Below, one piece after another: positions 9,613 through 35,844 of a stretch of DNA of 64,000 nucleotides. Source of the stretch: Synechococcus sp. PROS-U-1 (GTDB taxonomy: Bacteria; Cyanobacteriota; Cyanobacteriia; PCC-6307; Cyanobiaceae); contig NZ_CP047951.1 of NCBI RefSeq assembly GCF_014279755.1, forward strand, positions 2,480,001-2,544,000, read 5' to 3'. The notes under the pieces were generated by a model. That model searched no databases. It worked only from the letters and a program-made list of their open reading frames with translations, and was not told the origin of the DNA. The translations under genes and the position numbers were made by a program. Each line of letters opens with the position of its first letter. Within the stretch, counting starts at the first letter, position 1.

Positions 9613-9628
9613 TGTAGCCGTTGCTACA
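9613..9628. promoter_or_regulatory. Perfect TGTAGC-N4-GCTACA dyad, NtcA/CRP-like operator
   Basis: TGTAGCcgttGCTACA is a perfect 16-base inverted repeat and fits the NtcA consensus GTA-N8-TAC. It lies in the divergent spacer between the DUF4278 gene (74 bases from its ATG) and the lipoprotein gene (135 bases). No clear TAN3T -10 box follows at 20-24 bases on either side, so activation from this site is unproven. A similar dyad precedes the second DUF4278 gene. Confidence 0.5.
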
Positions 9629-24597: not shown

Positions 24598-24613
24598 TGT
24601 AGCAACAGCTACC
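24598..24613. promoter_or_regulatory. TGTAGC-N4-GCTAC dyad upstream of the short DUF4278 gene
   Basis: TGTAGCaacaGCTACc satisfies GTA-N8-TAC and is nearly identical to the dyad at 9613-9628. It lies 83 bases before the ATG at 24696. A perfect 7-bp hairpin, CTTCGCG-cca-CGCGAAG (24623-24639), follows and would be in the leader of a transcript. Confidence 0.5.
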
Positions 24614-24695
24614 GATCGTTCACTTCGCGCCACGCGAAGCGCAGTTCGCCTCAGGCCATGGAACGGGGACCTGAGCTTGCTTCGAGGACCATCCA

Positions 24696-24863
24696 ATGAC
24701 CACCCTTCTCTATCGCGGGCATCAGTACCAGCAAAGCAACGCCACTGAGGGCAAACCTGGTGTGCAGCTGGTCTACCGCCGCAACGTGTACCAAGCCCGT
24801 CAGATCAACAGCCACCGCACTCCGGTGCAGCTCGTTTACCGCGGGGTGGGCTACACGCGCTAG
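24696..24863 (+). CDS. Short DUF4278 protein
   Basis: 55 residues, MTTLLYRGHQYQQ to LVYRGVGYTR, consisting of three copies of a (L/V)YR(G/R)xxY element (residues about 5-11, 26-32 and 47-53). This is the same cyanobacterial DUF4278 family as the gene at 9120-9539. A GAGGA ribosome site stands six bases before the ATG. Function unknown. Confidence 0.7.
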   Translation: MTTLLYRGHQYQQSNATEGKPGVQLVYRRNVYQARQINSHRTPVQLVYRGVGYTR

Positions 24864-25249: not shown

Positions 25250-25924
25250 CTACGCCACCAGACGGTTCAGCATTGGCAATTCCGACAGTTCGTCCCTCCA
25301 CTCCTGAGCCCAAAGGGCCTGGCTGCGCTCATACACCTCCATCAACTGCTCCACCGCACGCTCATGGAAATCAACCCGTAGGTCCAACAACGGAAAGGCA
25401 GCTTCACCACTCACCTGTACCGCTGCTGAAGTGCAGAAATCGGAGCGGTGATCGCCTCCAGCAGCCTCCCCAGCCTGCAGGGCAGCCATCAGGCGACGAC
25501 CAAGTTTCCAGCTGGGATCGCTGGTGAGATACGCCTGCTCCATCGCCTCCACAACACCATCGTCCACTAAACAATTTCCGGCGACAGACAGGTCACGCCG
25601 ATGGCGGTGCCCAGCCCAAGCCCCGCAATCCTGCCCCGTCCAACAGGCCGTTCGACCATCCAGATCGATCAGGTGAAACTGACGCCGGTCACGATGCTGA
25701 TCATCCGCCAGAAGGCTGGCCAGAACACTCTCGGCATCCGAACTCTGCTCCAGGCGTTCAAGGCCACAGATCCCCAGATAGGGATTGGTGTGGGCCTGGG
25801 TCGCCACAGCGCCAACTCCGGCGCGGATGTGGGGCACGGTGGATCCAACGGCCAGATGACAGGTGGCAACAGCCACGCCAAAGCGGCCGTTGTTGGGATC
25901 ACGGGCCAGGATCGAAAAAGTCAC
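25250..25924 (-). CDS. DUF1028 family protein (predicted Ntn-hydrolase fold)
   Basis: A 224-residue protein starting MTFSILARDPNNGRFGVAVATCHLAVG with GAVATQAHTNPYLG, the DUF1028 (PF06267-type) pattern. Members are thought to have an Ntn-hydrolase-like fold, but I know of no assigned reaction. It overlaps the M20 hydrolase gene by 4 bases (ATGA), so the pair is likely made together. It may act on a related amide substrate; that is inference from position. Confidence 0.8.
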   Translation of the reverse strand: MTFSILARDPNNGRFGVAVATCHLAVGSTVPHIRAGVGAVATQAHTNPYLGICGLERLEQSSDAESVLASLLADDQHRDRRQFHLIDLDGRTACWTGQDCGAWAGHRHRRDLSVAGNCLVDDGVVEAMEQAYLTSDPSWKLGRRLMAALQAGEAAGGDHRSDFCTSAAVQVSGEAAFPLLDLRVDFHERAVEQLMEVYERSQALWAQEWRDELSELPMLNRLVA

Positions 25925-27210
25925 GGCAGCTGACGGTCAAGCCGCAGCAACGTTTCGAGCAGCACCGCAGTGCCCGCCCAGCACTGTTCATCGCTGGTGA
26001 ACTCCGCAGCGGAATGACTCAAACCACCCCGGCTGGGGACAAAGATCATGCCCATCGGCCAACGGCGACCGACTTCCTGCGCATCATGGCTGGCGCGGCT
26101 GGGGAGATGGCTGTGGGACAGACCGAGGTCGGCAGCGGCTTCTGCAATCGTCGCCATCACCACAGCATCAGCAGGGGTGGGATCAACACTGAACTGTGGG
26201 TCCACCGAAATCGGGCAGCCCGTTTCAGCACCGATGCTTTCGACCTGCTGCATCAACTCCTCCACCAATTGATCGAGCACACGTCGATCCACATCCCTTA
26301 AATCAACTGTCAGGGAGACAGCACCAGGGACGACGTTGGCGGCATTGGGCCAAACCTCAAGACGGCCCACCGTCGCCACAGGATCTCCTGGATGACTGGA
26401 GGCCATGGCCTCGACAGCGAGAACAATGCGCGACGCCGCCACGAGGGCGTCCTGTCGCAGACCCATCGGTGTAGTGCCGGCATGGTTGGCCTGTCCCTGC
26501 ACATTGATGCTGAACCGGCGCTGACCGACGACACCCTCCACAACACCGATGGCATCACCGCGTTGCTCGAGAACACCGCCCTGCTCAACATGCAATTCCA
26601 GGAAAGCGGCGTAAGCCTCATCGGAGCGGCGGGCGGAGGCCAATGACGGCCAATGCCCCCCGATGCGTGCCAGGTTCTCCTGAATCGGCTGGCCATTGCT
26701 GGTGGCGTAACTCTCCGGATCAGTGGAGGCCGTGCCCGCCAAACCCTTGCAACCCACCATGGTCGACTCCTCGTCGGCAAAGGCGATCAACTCGATTCCA
26801 TGCCGCAGCCGCATGCCCTTGTCTTGAAGAGCTCGGCAAGCTTCGAGACCTGCAAGAACACCCAAGGCTCCATCGAAACGTCCGCCTGTGGGAACGGTGT
26901 CGAGGTGTGACCCGGTCACCAAAGCAGGACGATGTGGCTCGAGGCCGTCAAGACGCCCGATCAAATTGCCAGCGGCATCAACACGAACCTGCATGCCCAG
27001 CTGCTTCATCCAACTGGCCAGCAACTCACGGCCCTGGACGTCTTCAGCCGAAAACCCCCGTCGACAGACGCTGCCATCCGGCTTGGAACCAATGCTGGCC
27101 AGCTGCTGAATTGATCCGACCAAACGATCACGGTTTGCACGCGTCGCAACTTCGACTGGCTCGACCCTCGATGCAGGGGTGGTCGGAGACGCCGAGATGA
27201 GCGATGGCAA
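25921..27210 (-). CDS. M20-family carbamoyl-amide hydrolase (N-carbamoyl-L-amino acid hydrolase / allantoate amidohydrolase)
   Basis: A 429-residue di-metal amidase of the M20 carbamoylase branch. The metal ligands are visible in GSHLDTVPTGGRFDGALG, FADEES, ELHVEQG and RASHDAQE. The dimerisation-domain motif NHAGTTPMGLRQDAL also fits. It releases ammonium and CO2 from an N-carbamoyl group; the substrate could be an N-carbamoyl amino acid, beta-ureidopropionate or allantoate. The nearby genes favour carbamoyl compounds. The start is uncertain by about 20 residues. Confidence 0.85.
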   Translation of the reverse strand: MPSLISASPTTPASRVEPVEVATRANRDRLVGSIQQLASIGSKPDGSVCRRGFSAEDVQGRELLASWMKQLGMQVRVDAAGNLIGRLDGLEPHRPALVTGSHLDTVPTGGRFDGALGVLAGLEACRALQDKGMRLRHGIELIAFADEESTMVGCKGLAGTASTDPESYATSNGQPIQENLARIGGHWPSLASARRSDEAYAAFLELHVEQGGVLEQRGDAIGVVEGVVGQRRFSINVQGQANHAGTTPMGLRQDALVAASRIVLAVEAMASSHPGDPVATVGRLEVWPNAANVVPGAVSLTVDLRDVDRRVLDQLVEELMQQVESIGAETGCPISVDPQFSVDPTPADAVVMATIAEAAADLGLSHSHLPSRASHDAQEVGRRWPMGMIFVPSRGGLSHSAAEFTSDEQCWAGTAVLLETLLRLDRQLP

Positions 27211-27304
27211 TGCCGTGACCTTCAGTTCAAAGGGTTCGTCATCTTGACCTGAATCAACCGATTGGCGTGTAGCTAGTGCAACGATTTAACCCTGATCAAA
27301 GAAT

Positions 27305-29329
27305 TCAAACGGGCATCAGCACCCGCCATCCAAGGCGGTCGGCCTCCCGACGGGCCAGGGCGGGCACGTCTTCAGCCACAAACATCCGGTGCAGCATTTG
27401 CACACCCAGCAGATGATTGATCACGGCATCCATCTGCACACGCTCCGCATCGGTGGTGGCTGGGTCCTCATGACGCGAAAACAAGGCGCGTACGCCGGCT
27501 TTGCTCAATAAACCAGCGGCATCAATCGCCTCATCACTGAGGTAGTCATCAGCGAGTTGCTTCATCTGCGCCCACTTCTCGGGCTCCGTGTGGGCAGGCG
27601 GCGCCATGAAGGCGAACTTCTCTCGCCGATACAACACCTCGGGCAACAAACCCGCCATGGCTTCCCGCAGCACGTATTTCTCGGTTTTGCCCTTAATACG
27701 CAGTTCGGGAGGCACTTGCACGGCAACAGCGGCCAGATGGTGATCCAAAAATGCCGGTCGCGCCTCCATGGAATTGGCCATGTCGACCCGATCACCACCC
27801 CAGGTCAAAATCTGGCCCTCCAACATGGTTTTGATCCAGACGTACTGCGCCTTGTCGAGGGCATGGCGCCCGTCCAGTTGATCCGCATCCAATTGCGCCG
27901 CAATCGCTTTACCCGGGGAGTAATCCTGCAGAGCTGCAGCATGAGACTCCGCCAGAAGCTCCGGCACCAAGGGCGCGCAGGCCAGCCACGGCTGCAGGCA
28001 ACTGGGGGTGAAGCCAACCACCGCATCCAGGTCTGGATCGTCGACCTGGTTTTCAGCCAACATCGCTCCCTGCACCAGGGCATTCGACTGCTGAAGCAGG
28101 CTTTCCCAGGTATCGCGCTCCTCCTGAGGCAGGTCATCCAGACCGTGCAGGAACATGTCGCGGCGAAAGGCGGGATAACCGCCGAACAACTCATCTGACC
28201 CTTCACCGGTCATCACGACCTTGTAGTCAACATCGTTGACATGGCGACTCATCAAGAACTTCGCCACCGCCAACGTGTTGTAGATCGTTCGCTCCGCATG
28301 CCAGATGGTGCGCTCCATATGGCCATAAAGCTCTTGGCCCGACAGACGCATCAGATCCTGCTCAGCCCCCGTGGCCTCAGCCATCTCCTGGGCAATCGGC
28401 GACTCGTCGTAACGGGCGTCATCGAATCCGATCGTGAACGCCTTCACCGGTGCCTGGCTGACAGCTGACGCCAAACCGAGAATCGAACAACTGTCGATGC
28501 CACCGGACAGATAACAGCCCACAGGCACGTCGGCCACCATGCGCAGCTCGACGGCCTCCAGCAAAGCCGCACGAACTGCAGCGATGTGGTCGGCCTCCGT
28601 GAGGCGGCGATCGCGCTGATCCTGACGCGGAAAGTCGACATCCCAGTAGGTCGACTCCGACACCTCCAGCCGCCCGTTCGCACGTTGCACCTTCAGCACA
28701 TGGCCAGGCTGCACCTGGTGCACCCCAGCAAAAGCCGTGGTGCCAGGAACCATGGTCTGCATCAACTGGTGGAACAGACCTTCTGAGGTAAAGCGCCGCT
28801 CCACCGCCGGATGCGCGAACAGCACCTTCAACTCGGAACCAAACACCAGACCCTCAGGCGTCATCACCCAGTACTGCGGTTTGATGCCGAAGCGATCCCG
28901 CACCAGGTAGAGGCAATCCTCCACACGATCAAACAATGCGAAGGCAAATTCCCCGCGCAACAAGGGCAGAGTCGCCTCCAATCCCTGGCGCTGGTAGAGC
29001 CGGAGCAGGATCTCGGAATCGCTCTTGCTGCTAAATCGCACCCCTTGGGCGGTGAGGTCCGCCCTGATGCGCTGAAAGTCGTAGAACTCGCCGTTGTGCG
29101 CCATCAGCACCTCACCGTCATCGGTGAGAAAGGGCTGACGGCCACGTGACTCGTTCAGATCGATGATCGAGAGGCGGGCATGGCAGAAACCAACACCAGC
29201 CTGATCAAGCACCTCGACGCCGAAGCCGTCGGGCCCGCGATGGGCCTGGATCGCCGCCATGTTGACCAGCAGCTGGCGGTCCACCGTCTGACGACAGTCA
29301 GCATTGAAAACACCTCCGATTCCGCACAT
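27305..29329 (-). CDS. asnB: Asparagine synthase (glutamine-hydrolysing) family protein
   Basis: A 674-residue protein with an N-terminal Ntn glutaminase domain (nucleophile Cys2 in MCGIGGVF, then HRGPDGFG and MAHNGEFYDF) and a C-terminal ATP-PPi synthetase domain (YLSGGIDSCSILGLAS). It transfers glutamine ammonia to an adenylated carboxylate, usually that of aspartate. Its coupling to a carbamoyltransferase-like gene 9 bases upstream and a length above the usual 550-630 leave open a different acceptor. The stop lies near 27305 with 94 bases to the M20 gene. Confidence 0.88.
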   Translation of the reverse strand: MCGIGGVFNADCRQTVDRQLLVNMAAIQAHRGPDGFGVEVLDQAGVGFCHARLSIIDLNESRGRQPFLTDDGEVLMAHNGEFYDFQRIRADLTAQGVRFSSKSDSEILLRLYQRQGLEATLPLLRGEFAFALFDRVEDCLYLVRDRFGIKPQYWVMTPEGLVFGSELKVLFAHPAVERRFTSEGLFHQLMQTMVPGTTAFAGVHQVQPGHVLKVQRANGRLEVSESTYWDVDFPRQDQRDRRLTEADHIAAVRAALLEAVELRMVADVPVGCYLSGGIDSCSILGLASAVSQAPVKAFTIGFDDARYDESPIAQEMAEATGAEQDLMRLSGQELYGHMERTIWHAERTIYNTLAVAKFLMSRHVNDVDYKVVMTGEGSDELFGGYPAFRRDMFLHGLDDLPQEERDTWESLLQQSNALVQGAMLAENQVDDPDLDAVVGFTPSCLQPWLACAPLVPELLAESHAAALQDYSPGKAIAAQLDADQLDGRHALDKAQYVWIKTMLEGQILTWGGDRVDMANSMEARPAFLDHHLAAVAVQVPPELRIKGKTEKYVLREAMAGLLPEVLYRREKFAFMAPPAHTEPEKWAQMKQLADDYLSDEAIDAAGLLSKAGVRALFSRHEDPATTDAERVQMDAVINHLLGVQMLHRMFVAEDVPALARREADRLGWRVLMPV

Positions 29330-29338
29330 AACGCTCGC

Positions 29339-30454
29339 TCAGACGACATCCATGACGCGTTCGGCCCGGTTCACCATGCAGGTGAGAAGTGCCATCCGCA
29401 GGAACACAGCTCCCCTGGCCTGGCTGAAGTACCAGTTGTGGGGTGTGTCATCCAGGCAGGTGCTCAGTTCCGCTCCCCGTGCCAAGGGGTGGAGCACGAT
29501 CGCTTCAGGCTTGAACGGCATATCGCGGGTGAGGCGAAATCCGCCACCGTGCACTTCATAGGTATCGCCAATCCAGGCGATGGCGTTGATATAAATGACA
29601 TCCAAATCGGGCACTTCAGCCTGAAGATCGGTGCTGCAGCGCACCTTCATTCCACAAGCTTCGAGCTCCTCCAACTGCCCTGGGTCAAACAGCTGCAGAT
29701 CCGAATCGAGCCCGGGAGCATGGATCACCACCACCTCATCCACGGTCTGCGGGAATTTGGCCAGGATCCTCAGCAGTGAGCGAACCGTTCGCATCCGGGA
29801 TGGAATCCCGACGATTCCGATGCGAATCCGATCAGCCGCAGCCACCTCAACTTCAGCGAGCTTGGGACGCCACTTGAAGATCGTGTACAGATCCGCCATC
29901 GCCTGAGTCGGATGTTCATCAATGCCATTGCCTGCATTGATGATGGGAATCCGCAGGGTTGACGTCATCGCATAAACAGCACCGGGATCGCTGTCCCGTA
30001 GCACCACGCAATCGCCGTAGTTGTTGAACATGTGGGCGACATCTTCCAGAGACTCGCCTTTGGCAATCCCCGTGGTTGCCCTGTCGGTGATGTTGATCGA
30101 GCTGCCACCAAGACGATGCCAAGCGCTGTCAAAAGACAGGCGGGTGCGGGTGCTCGGCTCGTAAAACGCGTTGATCAGAATCTTGCCGGTCAGGGGCGTG
30201 TTGTGACGGCAATACCGATCTGGATTGCTCTCGAACTTCGCCGCCAGCCGAAACACCTGCAACAAGGCCTCGGGTCGAAACGGTTGGATCGACACCACAT
30301 GCTGATTCACCAGATCCAGCAACGGCTCTCCGTCCTCGGCAATCGCAGCCAGCAGCTCCTGGGGTTGGTTCTGGCCATAGACATCGGGACCCATCGGCTG
30401 AAACCGAATCTGTACCGACGTGGCGTCCACAACTGCTGAATTGGCCTGTGCCAT
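29339..30454 (-). CDS. Divergent aspartate/ornithine carbamoyltransferase superfamily protein
   Basis: A 371-residue protein. The carbamoyl-phosphate side is intact: FYEPSTRTRLSFD, the 80s-loop-like TTGIAKGESLED, HPTQAMADLYTI and HPLARG. The second-substrate side is not standard: where aspartate transcarbamylase has R-x-Q and ornithine transcarbamylase has the SMG loop, this protein has INAIAWIGDTYE. An extra N-terminal extension of about 50 residues precedes the fold. It is therefore a carbamoyltransferase with unknown acceptor, not simply PyrB. It lies 9 bases before asnB and is probably co-translated with it. Confidence 0.75.
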   Translation of the reverse strand: MAQANSAVVDATSVQIRFQPMGPDVYGQNQPQELLAAIAEDGEPLLDLVNQHVVSIQPFRPEALLQVFRLAAKFESNPDRYCRHNTPLTGKILINAFYEPSTRTRLSFDSAWHRLGGSSINITDRATTGIAKGESLEDVAHMFNNYGDCVVLRDSDPGAVYAMTSTLRIPIINAGNGIDEHPTQAMADLYTIFKWRPKLAEVEVAAADRIRIGIVGIPSRMRTVRSLLRILAKFPQTVDEVVVIHAPGLDSDLQLFDPGQLEELEACGMKVRCSTDLQAEVPDLDVIYINAIAWIGDTYEVHGGGFRLTRDMPFKPEAIVLHPLARGAELSTCLDDTPHNWYFSQARGAVFLRMALLTCMVNRAERVMDVV

Positions 30455-30615
30455 AGCGGGATCAGATCAACACTCTGTTTGCCAAACCAAGTGCTAAATC
30501 CAGGAACTACATCTTTTACCGGTAACAACAACAACACCCCTTCGTCCACAAAGAAGCAGGTTCTTAAGCAAAGATCCCGAAAAAATGTTCAGCTGGTTAC
30601 TAACACTTGCAGCCG

Positions 30616-30765
30616 TCACCACACACGACCGTTCCGCCACTCAACCCACCAAATCAGTAACAAGACGAACACAGACAACACCAAGGCAAGCTGACTGGCC
30701 ACCAGCAGAAACTGAAAACCGGAGAGTCCAACGAGGCTGGTCATCAAAAGAAGACTTTGGATCAT
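30616..30765 (-). CDS. Tiny membrane protein, translationally coupled to the symporter
   Basis: A 49-residue ORF, MIQSLLLMTSLVGL to WRNGRVW, almost entirely hydrophobic in residues 4-41 with a basic C-terminus, so one long or two short membrane spans. Its ATG overlaps the symporter stop (ATGA), and GGAGGAGGG, also inside the symporter gene, is an excellent ribosome site. It is probably a real gene and could be an auxiliary subunit of the transporter; no family recognised. Confidence 0.55.
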   Translation of the reverse strand: MIQSLLLMTSLVGLSGFQFLLVASQLALVLSVFVLLLIWWVEWRNGRVW

Positions 30766-32192
30766 CCCTCCTCCTGCAACAAAGTGAAGTCAAACCGTTC
30801 CGGCCACGTGCGACTGCCGATCAGCATCACGACTGCTGACACGGCCGCCGAAAACACAGCGGCGCAGTAAGGCGCTATCAGCACATAAGCGAGCAGGCCA
30901 ACAACGCTGCCGGCGAGCATGGCCGCAATGGCAGCCGTGCGATTGGCCGTGCGCCAGTACAGGCCGCAGGCCACAGGCCAGACCGTGGAGGCCACCAGGG
31001 CACCGGTGAAGAACAGCACCGACGCCAAAGAATCCAGCCGCGGCCAGGACAGCGCCAGCGTGACGACCGCCAACCCCACCACCATCAGCCGCGCAGCCTG
31101 CTTCAGCTGCAGGTCACTGGCTTGGGGCCGCAACAGGCGGAAGTACACATCCTCCGCCAGAAGATCGGCGGTGGATGCCAACAGCGAATCCAGGGTGGAG
31201 GTGAGCGACGCAAACACCACCACAAACACCAGAGCAGCGCCGCCGGCTCCAAGCAGATCAGCCGCCATCACTGGAAACACCATGTTCACTTGCTCGAGAG
31301 GCAACTCACGCGCCAAGGCCACCAGGCCGATGGAGCCCGTCACCATCGGCACGCTCATCCAGGCGACCCCCCCCAACACAAATGACGTCATCACCACCGA
31401 GCGACGGCTTGCGAAAACCCGAGACCACCAGATGTTGTTGTGAAACACCTCGCCCATCGAGAACAGGGCGGAATTCCACGCGATCAACAAACCGGCAGGC
31501 AACAGCAGATCGAGCCGATCGGGATGCCGGGCGAGCAACGAGGCATGCACCTCGGGCATCGGGAATTGCCGGAAGGCGAGCACCGCCACCACCGCCAGCA
31601 GCACCATGATCAAAAGCGACTGGATGAAATCGGTGCCGATCACGGCCCGCATCCCGCCGAACAGGGTGTAAAGCGTGGCGACACCAATCACCACCACCAT
31701 CCCCACGTGGTAATTGAAGCCTGAAAGGGCCTGCAGCAGCAGTCCGGCACCCATCGCCTGGGTCATCAGAAAACCCAGGGTGTAAATAGCGGTGATCACC
31801 ATGAACACCCACCACGCCAGGCGCCCGTAACGCAACCGAATGAAATCGCCGCTGGTGCGCCCGTTGGGCATCAGCTGCTTGATCCGCGAAGCCAGGGGGG
31901 CAAACAGGATCAGTCCAAGCCCTGCCAGGGCATAGCTGAACATGCCCCAAAGCCCGGTCTTGTAGCCGAATTCAGGGGCAAGCAACGTGGTGTTGCCGGT
32001 GACCCAGGAGGCCATCAACGTGGCGGTGCTCAGGGCCAGCCCGATGTTGCGCCCCGCCAGCATGTAGTCATCGGCATTGCCTTGACCGCGCCGACCCCAA
32101 GCAATCCCGAGGGCAACCCAGAGAACGGAGAACAACACCACCAGCGCCCAGGCGATCCCGGGCTGGAGGAAGGGAACCGAGTCAGCGGACAT
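30762..32192 (-). CDS. Sodium:solute symporter (SSS family), possibly DUR3-like urea or amide transporter
   Basis: A 476-residue membrane protein with about 13 hydrophobic segments. DDYMLAGRNIGLALSTATLM, then GYKTGLWGMFSYALAG and FASLTSTLDSLLASTADLL are SSF family hallmarks. The early region resembles the DUR3 type urea permeases more than PutP proline carriers, but this is only impression. It imports an organic solute with sodium or protons. It heads the run that continues with the carbamoyltransferase and asparagine synthetase, so the solute may be a nitrogen compound. Confidence 0.82.
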   Translation of the reverse strand: MSADSVPFLQPGIAWALVVLFSVLWVALGIAWGRRGQGNADDYMLAGRNIGLALSTATLMASWVTGNTTLLAPEFGYKTGLWGMFSYALAGLGLILFAPLASRIKQLMPNGRTSGDFIRLRYGRLAWWVFMVITAIYTLGFLMTQAMGAGLLLQALSGFNYHVGMVVVIGVATLYTLFGGMRAVIGTDFIQSLLIMVLLAVVAVLAFRQFPMPEVHASLLARHPDRLDLLLPAGLLIAWNSALFSMGEVFHNNIWWSRVFASRRSVVMTSFVLGGVAWMSVPMVTGSIGLVALARELPLEQVNMVFPVMAADLLGAGGAALVFVVVFASLTSTLDSLLASTADLLAEDVYFRLLRPQASDLQLKQAARLMVVGLAVVTLALSWPRLDSLASVLFFTGALVASTVWPVACGLYWRTANRTAAIAAMLAGSVVGLLAYVLIAPYCAAVFSAAVSAVVMLIGSRTWPERFDFTLLQEEG

Positions 32193-32307
32193 CCGTCGAC
32201 CCCCTGCGGTTCCAATAAAGATGTCCGCGCAGAATCATCACCACAGTTGCCACGGTTACGGCTGCACCGAGGGCAAAGATCAGTCGCGCCCAGAGCAATT
32301 CATCCAA
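32182..32307 (-). CDS. Possible tiny membrane protein ahead of the symporter
   Basis: About 41 residues from a TTG start, DELLWARLIFALGAAVTVAT to a basic tail YWNRRGSTDVR: one predicted membrane span, positive side in the C-terminus. An AAGGG lies 8 bases before the TTG. It overlaps the symporter start by 11 bases, suggesting translational coupling. A longer frame to 32400 would give an Arg-rich N-terminus that looks spurious. Low certainty because of the non-ATG start. Confidence 0.4.
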   Translation of the reverse strand: MDELLWARLIFALGAAVTVATVVMILRGHLYWNRRGSTDVR

Positions 32308-32507
32308 AGCGAAGACCCTTTGAACTCCAGAAACAGATAAGCAAAGGAGTCTTCCCCGCCTGGCCCTTCGCCCTCGATTCAGGTGCCTTCGGATACGCAA
32401 ACATCAAGCAATCAGCGCCCTGTCACCTGAAATTGCGGAATATGTAGCAACTACAACCCGAGGGGGTTGGGGCGACGCCTTGGATGAAATGTGCCCAGAC
32501 CATCGGA

Positions 32508-33983
32508 ATGTTCACCGACTACAAACCCACGGTCGGGTTCGACGAATATTTCTGCAGTGAAACGGCGAGGCCTCGCGACGATCTGGCAACGCTGCTTGCA
32601 TCGCTGGGGCAGATGGGATTGCCCGAGCTCAACCGCAGTCATGCCTCCGCCAGCCAGCTGCTGCGTCGCCTCGGTGCCACGTTCCGCCTGAACGATTCCG
32701 GCCTGAAGGGCAGTGAACGGATTCTTCCTTTCGATCCCTTGCCCCGACTGATCGGCCGCAGCGACTGGATCAACCTGGAGCGGGGACTACTGCAACGCCT
32801 GGAAGCCATCGACTGCTTCCTCGCCGACATCTATGGCCCCCAGCAGATCCTCAAGGACGGTGTGATCCCGCGGGAAGACGTGGAAAGTTCCTCCGGCTGG
32901 CGACCTCAGATGCAGGGCATCAGCCTGCCCCTCAACCGCTGGTGCCACATCTCCGGACTCGACCTGATCCGCGACGGCAATGGCACCTGGCGTGTCCTGG
33001 AAGACAACCTGCGCTGCCCGTCAGGGGTGGCCTACTTCCTCGAGAATCGTCGGGTGATGAAACGGTTGTTCCCTGGCCTGTTCGAGGGCCGTGCCGTTCA
33101 ACCGATCGACGCCTATCCCTCCCATCTGCTGCGCACCCTTCAGGACCTGGCGCCCTGGAGTGAAAGCCCTCGCGTGGCAATCCTGACGCCCGGGGTGTTC
33201 AACAGCGCCTATTTCGAACACAGCTATCTGGCCCAGCAGATGGGCATTGCACTGGTTGAGGGACGCGACCTGGTCTGCGACAACGGCCGGGTGTGGATGC
33301 GCAGCACCAACGGGCTCAAGCCCGTGGATGTGATCTACCGCCGTATCGACGACGATTTTCTCGATCCCACCGTGTTCCGGCAGGACTCGATGCTGGGGGT
33401 GCCGGGCCTGATCGACGTGCTTAGGCAAGGACGGGTTGCCATCGCCAATGCCCCCGGCACCGGCGTCGCCGACGACAAGCTGATCTACGCCCATGTGCCG
33501 GCAATGATCCGCTACTACCTCGATGAGGAGCCGATCATCGAGAACGTTCCCACCTATCTCTGTGCCCGGCCCGACGATCAGCGCTATGTGCTCGACCACC
33601 TCGAACAACTGGTGGTGAAATCGGTGGCGGAAGCCGGGGGCTACGGAATGCTGATCGGCCCCCAGGCCAGCCGATCGGAACTGGCTGACTTCGACACCAA
33701 AATCCGTGCGAATCCCCGCAACTTCATCGCGCAGCCCACACTGCAGCTCTCCACCGTGCCATCCCTCAGTGACGGTGAGCTGTATCCCTGCCACGTGGAT
33801 CTGCGCCCCTATGTGCTGCGCGGCTCAAACAGCTGGGTGAGCCCTGGTGGGCTGACGCGCGTGGCCCTCAAGCGGGGCTCACTGGTGGTGAATTCGTCCC
33901 AGGGGGGCGGCTGTAAGGACACCTGGATCGTCGACGACCAACGGATGTCGGCACCGCAGCCAAAGGAGGCTGTGCCGTGTTGA
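32508..33983 (+). CDS. Circularly permuted ATP-grasp protein (DUF404/DUF407)
   Basis: A 491-residue protein of the circularly permuted ATP-grasp type. Seen are LPLNRWCHISGLDLIRDGNG, RVLEDNLRCPSGVAYFLENR, DVIYRRIDDDFLDP and KSVAEAGGYGMLIG. Family members are predicted ATP-dependent amide or peptide ligases. The ATG at 32508 (MFTDYKP) matches the usual family start; an ATG at 32484 is also in frame. It overlaps the alpha-E gene by 7 bases. Substrate unknown. Confidence 0.85.
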   Translation: MFTDYKPTVGFDEYFCSETARPRDDLATLLASLGQMGLPELNRSHASASQLLRRLGATFRLNDSGLKGSERILPFDPLPRLIGRSDWINLERGLLQRLEAIDCFLADIYGPQQILKDGVIPREDVESSSGWRPQMQGISLPLNRWCHISGLDLIRDGNGTWRVLEDNLRCPSGVAYFLENRRVMKRLFPGLFEGRAVQPIDAYPSHLLRTLQDLAPWSESPRVAILTPGVFNSAYFEHSYLAQQMGIALVEGRDLVCDNGRVWMRSTNGLKPVDVIYRRIDDDFLDPTVFRQDSMLGVPGLIDVLRQGRVAIANAPGTGVADDKLIYAHVPAMIRYYLDEEPIIENVPTYLCARPDDQRYVLDHLEQLVVKSVAEAGGYGMLIGPQASRSELADFDTKIRANPRNFIAQPTLQLSTVPSLSDGELYPCHVDLRPYVLRGSNSWVSPGGLTRVALKRGSLVVNSSQGGGCKDTWIVDDQRMSAPQPKEAVPC

Positions 33984-34972
33984 GTCGCGTTGCCGATTCG
34001 CTCTACTGGATCAACCGCTATCTGGAACGCGCCGAAAACGTCTCACGTTTTCTGGAAGTGAGTGAAGCGATGGCGCTGGACAGTCCTCCAGGGAGCGCAG
34101 AACCATGGTTGCCGTTGGTGGAGGTGACAGGAGATCGGAACCGCTTCGACGCGGCCTATCCCGATGCCACTCCCAAACAAGTGGTGCGCTTCCTACTGCT
34201 GGACCGCAGCAATCCCAACAGCATCGTGAGCTGCATTGCGATGGCTCGGGAAAATGCAAGGCAGATCAGGGATGTGATCACCACGGAAATGTGGGAGCAG
34301 ATCAATGATCTGCACTGGAGCTTGCAAGACGACGAAGACATCTGGCGGGAACCCGTGCAGGAGCAACTGCAGATCATCCGCCGCGGCTGCCAGCTTGTGT
34401 ACGGGATCACCGACACCACACTGAGCCGCGATCTGAGCTGGCTATTCAGCCAGCTGGGACGTCTGATCGAACGCGCTGACAAAACATCCCGCATCCTCGA
34501 CGTCAAATACTTCCTGCTGCTGCCGTCCACCGAGGAGGTCGGCGGGGTGCTGGATGAACTGCAGTGGATCACCCTGCTGCGCACGGCGGGCGCGTATCAG
34601 ATGTACCGCCAAAGCGTCCAACAAGCGATCAGCCCCGCATCGGTGGCCCGCTTTTTGCTGCTGGATCCATTCTTTCCTCGGTCGGTGCGCTACTGCCTCC
34701 AGGGCATCAGCGACACCTTGCAACAGATCCAACAGCACCCGAGCCAAGACACGCCAGACGATCTCGACTGCTTACGCGGACAGCTCCTGGCCCGCTGGAG
34801 CTACGTAAGGATCGACAACCTGATCGAATCCGGTCTGCATGAAGCGATTGACCGGCTTCAACAGGACCTCAACCAACTCCACAACCTGCTCCAGACCCGC
34901 TACTTCACCAGCGCTGACCTCCGTTCCACCCCCACCGATCCCGCATGCGCGCTCTCATCGTTCACCGCCTGA
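33977..34972 (+). CDS. Alpha-E domain protein (DUF403)
   Basis: A 331-residue all-helical protein, starting MLSRVADSLYWINRYLERAENVSRFLEV, the alpha-E hallmark. Its GTG start has AAAGGAGG six bases upstream within the previous gene. Alpha-E proteins accompany circularly permuted ATP-grasp enzymes and are thought to be part of the same ligase system. It overlaps the transglutaminase gene by 28 bases. Confidence 0.87.
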   Translation: MLSRVADSLYWINRYLERAENVSRFLEVSEAMALDSPPGSAEPWLPLVEVTGDRNRFDAAYPDATPKQVVRFLLLDRSNPNSIVSCIAMARENARQIRDVITTEMWEQINDLHWSLQDDEDIWREPVQEQLQIIRRGCQLVYGITDTTLSRDLSWLFSQLGRLIERADKTSRILDVKYFLLLPSTEEVGGVLDELQWITLLRTAGAYQMYRQSVQQAISPASVARFLLLDPFFPRSVRYCLQGISDTLQQIQQHPSQDTPDDLDCLRGQLLARWSYVRIDNLIESGLHEAIDRLQQDLNQLHNLLQTRYFTSADLRSTPTDPACALSSFTA

Positions 34973-35844
34973 CGTATCGGTATGACGCCCCGGTGAATCT
35001 GGGGGAGCATCGCCTCTGTCTGCGGCCCCGGGGGCAGGGGTTCCAGACCCTGCTGGACCATCACCTCTACGTGCTGCCGGAACCGGAACAACGTCGGGAA
35101 CTGGTGGCCGCCAGCGGCGACGAAATCCAACGGCTCCGCTTTCTCGGCAGCACCGATGAACTGATCTTTGAGGCCCGCAGCCTGGTGGAGACCCGGTCGG
35201 CACCACCGCTGCAAAGCTGCTTCAACGGACTCGAACCTCCACTGCCCTACCCGCAGGGGCAACTCAACGGCGATCTGCAGGGCGCCCTAAAGGGTTGGTT
35301 GCCGAATGGCCAGCACGAACCCGCAGCCATCGACCTCACCCAGGAAGCGCTGATGGGCAGCAACCAACAGACCCTGGCCTTTCTGAAGCAACTCATTGAA
35401 CTGATTCAAGAGAGGGTGAAATACACCCAACGCCATATGGGGCCGGCCTGGCCAGCGGGCCGAACCCTGCGCGAGCGGATCGGCTCTTGCCGAGATCTGG
35501 CCATGCTGATGGTGGCCTGCTGCCGCGTAGTGGGTCTTCCGGCCCGATTCGTGAGCGGCTATCAACTGCAGCAACCTCCCCCGGAGGAGTACGACCTCCA
35601 TGCCTGGGCGGAGGTCTACCTGCCGGGAGCGGGCTGGCGAGGCTTTGACCCCAGTGCCGGCACGGAGGTCAACGATCGCTATGTGGTGCTGGCCACCTCC
35701 TCCAAGCCGGAACTCACCGCGGCCGTAAGCGGCAGCTTCAGCGGTCCCCCCGGAACAAGCAGTGAGCTGAACTGGCAGATTCAGATCAACGAAGAAGCCT
35801 CCGAACCGGAGAACTCACAACGCAAGCTGGTTCAGGCTGCCTGA
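34945..35844 (+). CDS. Transglutaminase-like cysteine peptidase family protein
   Basis: A 299-residue protein with the bacterial transglutaminase N-terminal domain (HRLTYRYDAPVNLGEHRLCL) and the core with catalytic Cys in RIGSCRDLAMLM, His in DLHAWAEVYLPG and Asp in FDPSAG. The triad is complete. It forms with the two preceding genes a conserved trio. It could cut or form amide bonds made by the ATP-grasp partner. It ends in a 13-base convergent overlap with the cupin gene. Confidence 0.85.
   Translation: MRALIVHRLTYRYDAPVNLGEHRLCLRPRGQGFQTLLDHHLYVLPEPEQRRELVAASGDEIQRLRFLGSTDELIFEARSLVETRSAPPLQSCFNGLEPPLPYPQGQLNGDLQGALKGWLPNGQHEPAAIDLTQEALMGSNQQTLAFLKQLIELIQERVKYTQRHMGPAWPAGRTLRERIGSCRDLAMLMVACCRVVGLPARFVSGYQLQQPPPEEYDLHAWAEVYLPGAGWRGFDPSAGTEVNDRYVVLATSSKPELTAAVSGSFSGPPGTSSELNWQIQINEEASEPENSQRKLVQAA

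Follow-up and report, generated by a model that had tools for sequence, protein, structure and literature searches.

Carbamoylglutamine amide (CGA) was isolated from Ectothiorhodospira marismortui, according to a reference cited in PMC1224877, and in 2013 it was known from this one organism only (PMC3857566). A described pathway with comparable chemistry leads to the osmolyte N-acetylglutaminylglutamine amide (NAGGN), for which AsnO amidates N-acetylglutaminylglutamine; the asnO-ngg genes correspond to PA3459-PA3461 in Pseudomonas aeruginosa (PMC8070244). Here we describe a block of genes in a stretch of 64,000 nucleotides from Synechococcus sp. PROS-U-1 (contig NZ_CP047951.1, positions 2,480,001 to 2,544,000; hereafter the window), which is part of a single-contig genome of 2,576,003 bases. 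We consider it likely that this block makes and recycles CGA, mainly for osmoprotection, whereby a carbamoyltransferase (CT) would carbamoylate glutamine, an asparagine-synthetase-like glutamine amidotransferase (ASNB) would amidate the product, and an M20-family hydrolase together with a DUF1028 protein would break the compound down.

A preliminary description of this DNA had placed a sodium:solute symporter (SSF), CT, ASNB, M20 and DUF1028 on one strand, with CT and ASNB nine bases apart and M20 overlapping DUF1028. All five are indeed encoded at these positions on the minus strand, their family labels are backed by strong Pfam matches, and both the 9-base gap from CT to ASNB and an overlap of 4 bases between the M20 and DUF1028 genes were seen. 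The upper limit of the interval described, 32307, turned out to be the TTG start of a 41-residue membrane protein preceding SSF, and a further membrane protein of 49 residues was absent from that description. In the order of transcription, the block consists of:

32182-32307, minus strand: 41-residue protein with a single transmembrane segment and a TTG start, proposed SSF partner; similar short open reading frames in relatives
30762-32192, minus strand: SSF, sodium:solute symporter (PF00474, 4.8e-31)
30616-30765, minus strand: 49-residue protein with a single transmembrane segment, ending in Trp, proposed small SSF subunit; peptide conserved at this place
29339-30454, minus strand: CT, carbamoyltransferase (OTCace_N/OTCace; Pfam OTCace_N, 2.5e-39)
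27305-29329, minus strand: ASNB, asparagine-synthetase-like glutamine amidotransferase (Pfam Asn_synthase, 4.4e-92, and GATase)
25921-27210, minus strand: M20-family carbamoyl-amidohydrolase (Pfam Peptidase_M20, 5.1e-26)
25250-25924, minus strand: DUF1028 protein, proposed amide hydrolase (PF06267, 6.9e-67)

Carbamoylglutamine amide and the gene block

In CGA the alpha-nitrogen bears a carbamoyl group and carbon 1 is amidated, and the molecule has four nitrogens per six carbons. The chemistry of CT and ASNB matches exactly these two modifications, the carbamoyl cap and the alpha-amide. The accession FOUO00000000 represents the type strain E. marismortui DSM 4180 (PMC8877833), and its contig FOUO01000006, the record of which is titled E. 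mobilis DSM 4180 and which belongs to E. marismortui DSM 4180T according to the same paper, has consecutive genes on the same strand for M20, an isochorismatase-type hydrolase, CT and ASNB (locus L100). The assignment of the block to CGA is supported by the presence of CT and ASNB in a known CGA producer, and by the fact that these two enzymes would supply both of its characteristic groups.

In the pathway that we propose, CT would use carbamoyl phosphate to carbamoylate glutamine at its alpha-amino group, yielding N-carbamoylglutamine. ASNB would then hydrolyse a second glutamine and use ATP to turn the alpha-carboxylate into an amide, and the resulting CGA would be neutral with both ends masked, like NAGGN. 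At falling salt or when nitrogen is scarce, the alpha-amide would be cleaved off by DUF1028 and the carbamoyl group by M20, which would regenerate glutamine and release ammonia and CO2; the isochorismatase-type hydrolase would take the part of DUF1028 in Ectothiorhodospira and Thioalkalivibrio. SSF and its small membrane partners would serve to recover solute that has leaked from the cell.

No genes for CGA biosynthesis were found in the open-access papers searched, four of which name the compound or something similarly called, and a description elsewhere is possible. The open-access literature likewise yielded no mention of CGA in Synechococcus, and the main text of recent papers on salinity in marine Synechococcus is silent on carbamoyl and asparagine genes. 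The module had been called undescribed in the preliminary account, and this holds for the genes but not for the compound, since CGA is known chemically.

Conservation and inheritance of the block

Named genomes were scanned with a profile of CT alone, and the linkage figures given here derive from the best 80 of 117 loci and hold for that range of similarity. ASNB was the next gene after CT, on the same strand, in 76 of the 77 loci with enough downstream sequence; the sole exception is Thiorhodospira sibirica, which has its ASNB orthologue elsewhere in the genome. SSF lies directly upstream of CT on the same strand in 66 of 73 loci. The CT-bearing genomes were mostly those of marine Synechococcus, joined by the sponge symbiont Aphanocapsa feldmannii, while CT proteins of 58-66% identity were encoded by Kangiella, Idiomarina, Aliidiomarina, Pseudoalteromonas, Alteromonas, Thioalkalivibrio, Ectothiorhodospira, Thiorhodospira, Nitrosomonas halophila and others. 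To our knowledge, all named carrier genera of familiar habitat among these best 80 loci are marine, halophilic or from soda lakes, where the habitat was read from the names and some metagenome-assembled genomes (MAGs) could not be placed.

Among 367 cyanobacterial genomes, CT was present in 14, and ASNB in all of these 14 and two more (Fisher p=1.7e-23, not corrected for relatedness), with ASNB directly following CT in 14/14. Within the family, CT, ASNB, SSF, M20 and DUF1028 occurred together in the same 18 high-quality genomes and all five were missing from the rest, the only departures from this all-or-none pattern being homologues that are unrelated or distant, and those members of the class that have no CT. 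Another Synechococcus genome, G014, retains the flanks in order, with the ATP-grasp cluster on one side and GATase and urease on the other, and lacks the block; its empty site keeps a remnant of 41 residues from the DUF1028 C-terminus (L108:9690-9812). A genome of another genus in the same family, G041, has this block with unchanged gene order, beside other neighbours and without urease. The loss in G014 and the different flanks in G041 indicate that the genes of the block are passed on and lost together, independently of the adjoining urea genes. The five genes are therefore a genuine module whose neighbourhood is conserved, and the comparison of neighbourhoods in relatives that the preliminary description had called for shows that the adjacency of CT and ASNB holds across phyla.

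Two loci deserve separate mention. A relative from the same family with a 1.7-Mb genome carries CT-ASNB-M20-DUF1028 without SSF (L136:5828-11031), and most of its listed congeners are without the block. A contig from a MAG titled Gammaproteobacteria (CPC316; L035) has a Synechococcus-like block with a CT that is 81% identical, and this contig is probably mis-binned.

The enzymes and small membrane proteins

CT is proposed to be a glutamine N-alpha-carbamoyltransferase. It scored under every NCBIfam cut-off for aspartate transcarbamylase (ATCase) and ornithine transcarbamylase, with 196 bits against a cut-off of 237 for TIGR00670 and 188 bits against 263 for NF002032, and PyrB-like and ArgF-like proteins are encoded elsewhere in the same genome. 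An AlphaFold2 model of CT (pLDDT 82.3, pTM 0.85) has the ATCase fold, and its best match in the PDB was the PALA-bound ATCase 1ml4, with a TM-score of 0.87 by target. We take Arg167 in the E. coli ATCase numbering to bind the alpha-carboxylate, and Arg229 and Gln231 to hold the side chain of aspartate. In an alignment of 30 diverse members of the CT family, the carbamoyl-phosphate site (STRTR, HPTQ) was invariant, as was R222, which aligns with Arg167. Where ATCase has Arg229 and Gln231, the alignment places A291 and A293 of the window protein, within a conserved YIN[AS]I stretch at the side-chain loop. These residues fit an alpha-amino acid as substrate whose alpha-carboxylate is free and whose side chain is neutral, and they suggest that carbamoylation would precede amidation. 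A viral or phage origin was considered and rejected, because no relative was found on a viral contig and the phage matches were ATCases of only about 30% identity.

ASNB contains an N-terminal MCG, the Cys of which belongs to the glutaminase domain, an SGGIDS motif, and both Asn_synthase and GATase domains, and we propose that it amidates the alpha-carboxylate of N-carbamoylglutamine. It fell below the NCBIfam equivalog cut-off for AsnB (PRK09431; 268 versus 499 bits) and did not reach that for the NAGGN amidotransferase (TIGR03104; 302 bits, cut-off 570). The broad asparagine-synthase model TIGR01536 was the only one passed, and it is not diagnostic because a member of the XrtA/PEP-CTERM amidotransferase family also passes it (498 bits). 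In a tree based on a short search and with some long branches, the cyanobacterial module members nested inside the proteobacterial ones. Orthologues of ASNB that are about 60% identical were also observed in cyanobacteria without detected CT (L109:7475-9505, L135:7124-10122 and L110:10309-10887). In L135 the gene is divergent from that for DUF1028, and the two full-length orthologues of this kind grouped with Ectothiorhodospiraceae. In L031 and L046, from Synechococcus sp. AG-670-A05 (one in-frame stop) and Aphanocapsa feldmannii, ASNB is read in two pieces, which may reflect either decay or sequencing error.

M20 is proposed to remove the carbamoyl group. Its score lies above the cut-off of TIGR01879, which makes it a full-length member of the hydantoinase/carbamoylase family, and it aligns over its length with the N-carbamoyl-L-amino acid hydrolase 3n5f. 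Its best NCBIfam model was the ErtE N-carbamyl-L-glutamate amidohydrolase NF058540 (2e-129, 432 bits), with a score below the cut-off of 520; we rejected the idea that M20 is ErtE or AllC proper, as both cut-offs were missed. The M20 proteins of the cyanobacterial modules nested among free-standing cyanobacterial M20 proteins, and those of the proteobacterial modules formed a separate clade. Taken together with the nesting of ASNB within the proteobacteria, this suggests that the synthetic pair probably moved between phyla and that the carbamoylase was added twice, which in turn would support a common substrate.

Among the fetched loci, DUF1028 was found in cyanobacterial ones only, and the only solved relative of this family is 2imh. 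Its gene tracks that of ASNB even in the absence of CT, since both occur in G058 and G073 and are divergent neighbours in G088, and for this reason we tentatively assign DUF1028 to the amide made by ASNB. In Ectothiorhodospira and Thioalkalivibrio, M20 is accompanied by the isochorismatase-type hydrolase in the stead of DUF1028; this protein is nearest to biuret and ureidoacrylate amidohydrolases, well under their cut-offs.

For SSF we propose a role in the uptake or retention of the solute. The 49-residue gene overlaps the SSF stop codon, and of 71 loci, 70 encode a hydrophobic peptide of about 40-50 residues with a final Trp in the interval from SSF to CT, the remaining one having undetermined bases at this site. 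As the search required the final Trp and hydrophobicity, these features were partly selected, but the near-universal location was not. Short open reading frames like that of the 41-residue protein precede SSF in several Synechococcus loci, and a longer protein with a terminal transmembrane segment occupies this place in the gammaproteobacterial loci. Neither small protein had a match among the NCBIfam models; we propose that the 49-residue peptide is a small subunit of SSF and the 41-residue protein a partner of it.

Alternative readings, surroundings and comparison with known systems

Several points weigh against the assignment to CGA. The compound was called a minor solute in E. marismortui (PMC3857566), many carriers of the block are not known as CGA makers, and the published lists of Synechococcus solutes (betaine, glucosylglycerol, glucosylglycerate and sucrose) do not contain it, where sugar-directed methods might miss CGA in marine Synechococcus. 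The substrates and products of the pathway are deduced from the genes, and the residue pattern of CT favours a neutral side chain without singling out glutamine. The cyanobacteria G058, G073 and G088 have an ASNB orthologue and DUF1028 with no CT detected, which suggests that ASNB can have another partner or substrate. Finally, M20 is missing from the vicinity in about one third of the larger loci.

As the gene families fix the chemistry but not the amino acid, the same two steps could yield another N-carbamoylated amino-acid amide, from asparagine, glutamate or a small dipeptide, to be used as an osmolyte or nitrogen store. The existence of ASNB homologues without CT and the proximity of M20 to the N-carbamyl-glutamate hydrolase model would agree with this, but the CGA maker E. 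marismortui carries the same cluster, and the loss from CT of the ligands that hold the side-chain carboxylate in ATCase argues against acidic substrates, so that we regard another product as rather unlikely. The chance is smaller still that nitrogen storage or supply is the chief role of the block and osmotic balance a secondary one, in which case the product may still be CGA. Urease genes adjoin the block, genes for formamidase and nitrite reductase lie elsewhere in the window, the block includes hydrolases, and CGA is rich in nitrogen. Yet the named carriers, which include sulfur oxidisers and heterotrophs, share, judged by name, salinity and not nitrogen habits, the block in another genus is flanked by other genes without urease, and the NtcA-type palindrome GTAN8TAC is absent before SSF, CT and M20. 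Direct control by NtcA was rejected on this last ground.

That the genes are chance neighbours encoding an ordinary, separate ATCase, asparagine synthetase and hydrolases is very improbable and was rejected. The fold and family matches are indeed to ATCase and asparagine synthetase, but PyrB- and ArgF-like genes exist separately in the genome, CT misses the ATCase cut-offs, its aspartate-binding residues are gone, and the neighbourhood is conserved across phyla and was lost as one piece in G014. The preliminary description had suggested that an N-carbamoyl or amide metabolite is made and broken down as a nitrogen store or source. Its first part is strongly supported by the co-inheritance and co-loss of the block and by the adjacency of CT and ASNB, and the refuting case that it had set out, no conserved neighbourhood in relatives or an ordinary ATCase and asparagine synthetase, is not borne out; as for the purpose, the compatible solute CGA is likelier than a simple nitrogen source because of the apparently salt-linked distribution and the presence of the cluster in E. 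marismortui DSM 4180T. A nitrogen-store role in addition to osmoprotection is possible.

In agreement with part of the description of the surroundings as devoted to nitrogen, the window encodes a urease alpha subunit, an acetamidase/formamidase, a nitrite reductase, a molybdopterin oxidoreductase and a branched-chain-type permease. Rfam identified no RNA element inside the block; the sole match nearby, on the other strand, is a glutamine-II riboswitch (RF01704, 67.3 bits, 24614-24675, plus strand). It is directly preceded by an NtcA-type palindrome, GTAGCAACAGCTAC, at 24599-24612, and followed by an open reading frame of 55 residues (24696-24863, plus strand) with repeats of the type LVYRGxxY, which presumably resembles DUF4278/PirA-type proteins. 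Sites of the form GTAN8TAC number five in the whole window (at 9614, 24599, 50357, 54881 and 55589), against 0.58 expected in shuffles. Beside the block, on the divergent strand (32484-35844, plus), are genes for a long protein, taken to be of the circularly permuted ATP-grasp type, and for an alpha-E-like and a transglutaminase-like protein, all named by reading their sequences.

Few photosynthetic cells in the sea are as abundant as marine Synechococcus. We lean, by a modest balance, towards the wider proposition that marine Synechococcus and many salt-adapted proteobacteria make CGA via a new glutamine-specific transcarbamylase, as an osmolyte and nitrogen reserve that would be recycled by the hydrolases and recovered by a symporter with tiny subunits. 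If true, genes would be assigned to an osmolyte that was described in 1991 and had one known organism as of 2013, and many marine Synechococcus would make a four-nitrogen solute that is missing from their compatible-solute inventories. CGA would then count among the nitrogen-rich metabolites of the ocean, so far unrecognised there, with a bearing on how nitrogen is spent in nitrogen-poor water and on what these cells release to other microbes. Further candidates that emerge are a transcarbamylase acting on glutamine, a function for DUF1028, and sodium-symporter partners of very small size.

Of the known systems, the NAGGN pathway likewise arrives at a neutral osmolyte through an asparagine-synthetase-like enzyme, which amidates an N-capped glutamine derivative at its alpha-carboxylate, and the operon of this pathway includes a hydrolase gene (PMC8070244). 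It differs in its cap, which arises by acetylation and a peptide bond formed by Ngg, while the block described here uses a carbamoyltransferase; since no Ngg acetyltransferase/peptide synthetase lies beside ASNB, where CT takes its place, and the NAGGN amidotransferase cut-off was missed, the NAGGN pathway itself was rejected. CT shares with PyrB the fold, the carbamoyl-phosphate site and the Arg for the alpha-carboxylate, and is distinguished from it by the two Ala residues, the YIN[AS]I motif at the side-chain loop and its scores below the ATCase cut-offs. M20 is a full-length relative of the ErtE/allantoate amidohydrolase family that remains below the ErtE equivalog cut-off. A further counterpart is the CGA of E. 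marismortui, a compound that carries the predicted groups and whose producer carries the cluster; it has been known as a compound only, and its proposed presence in Synechococcus is new.

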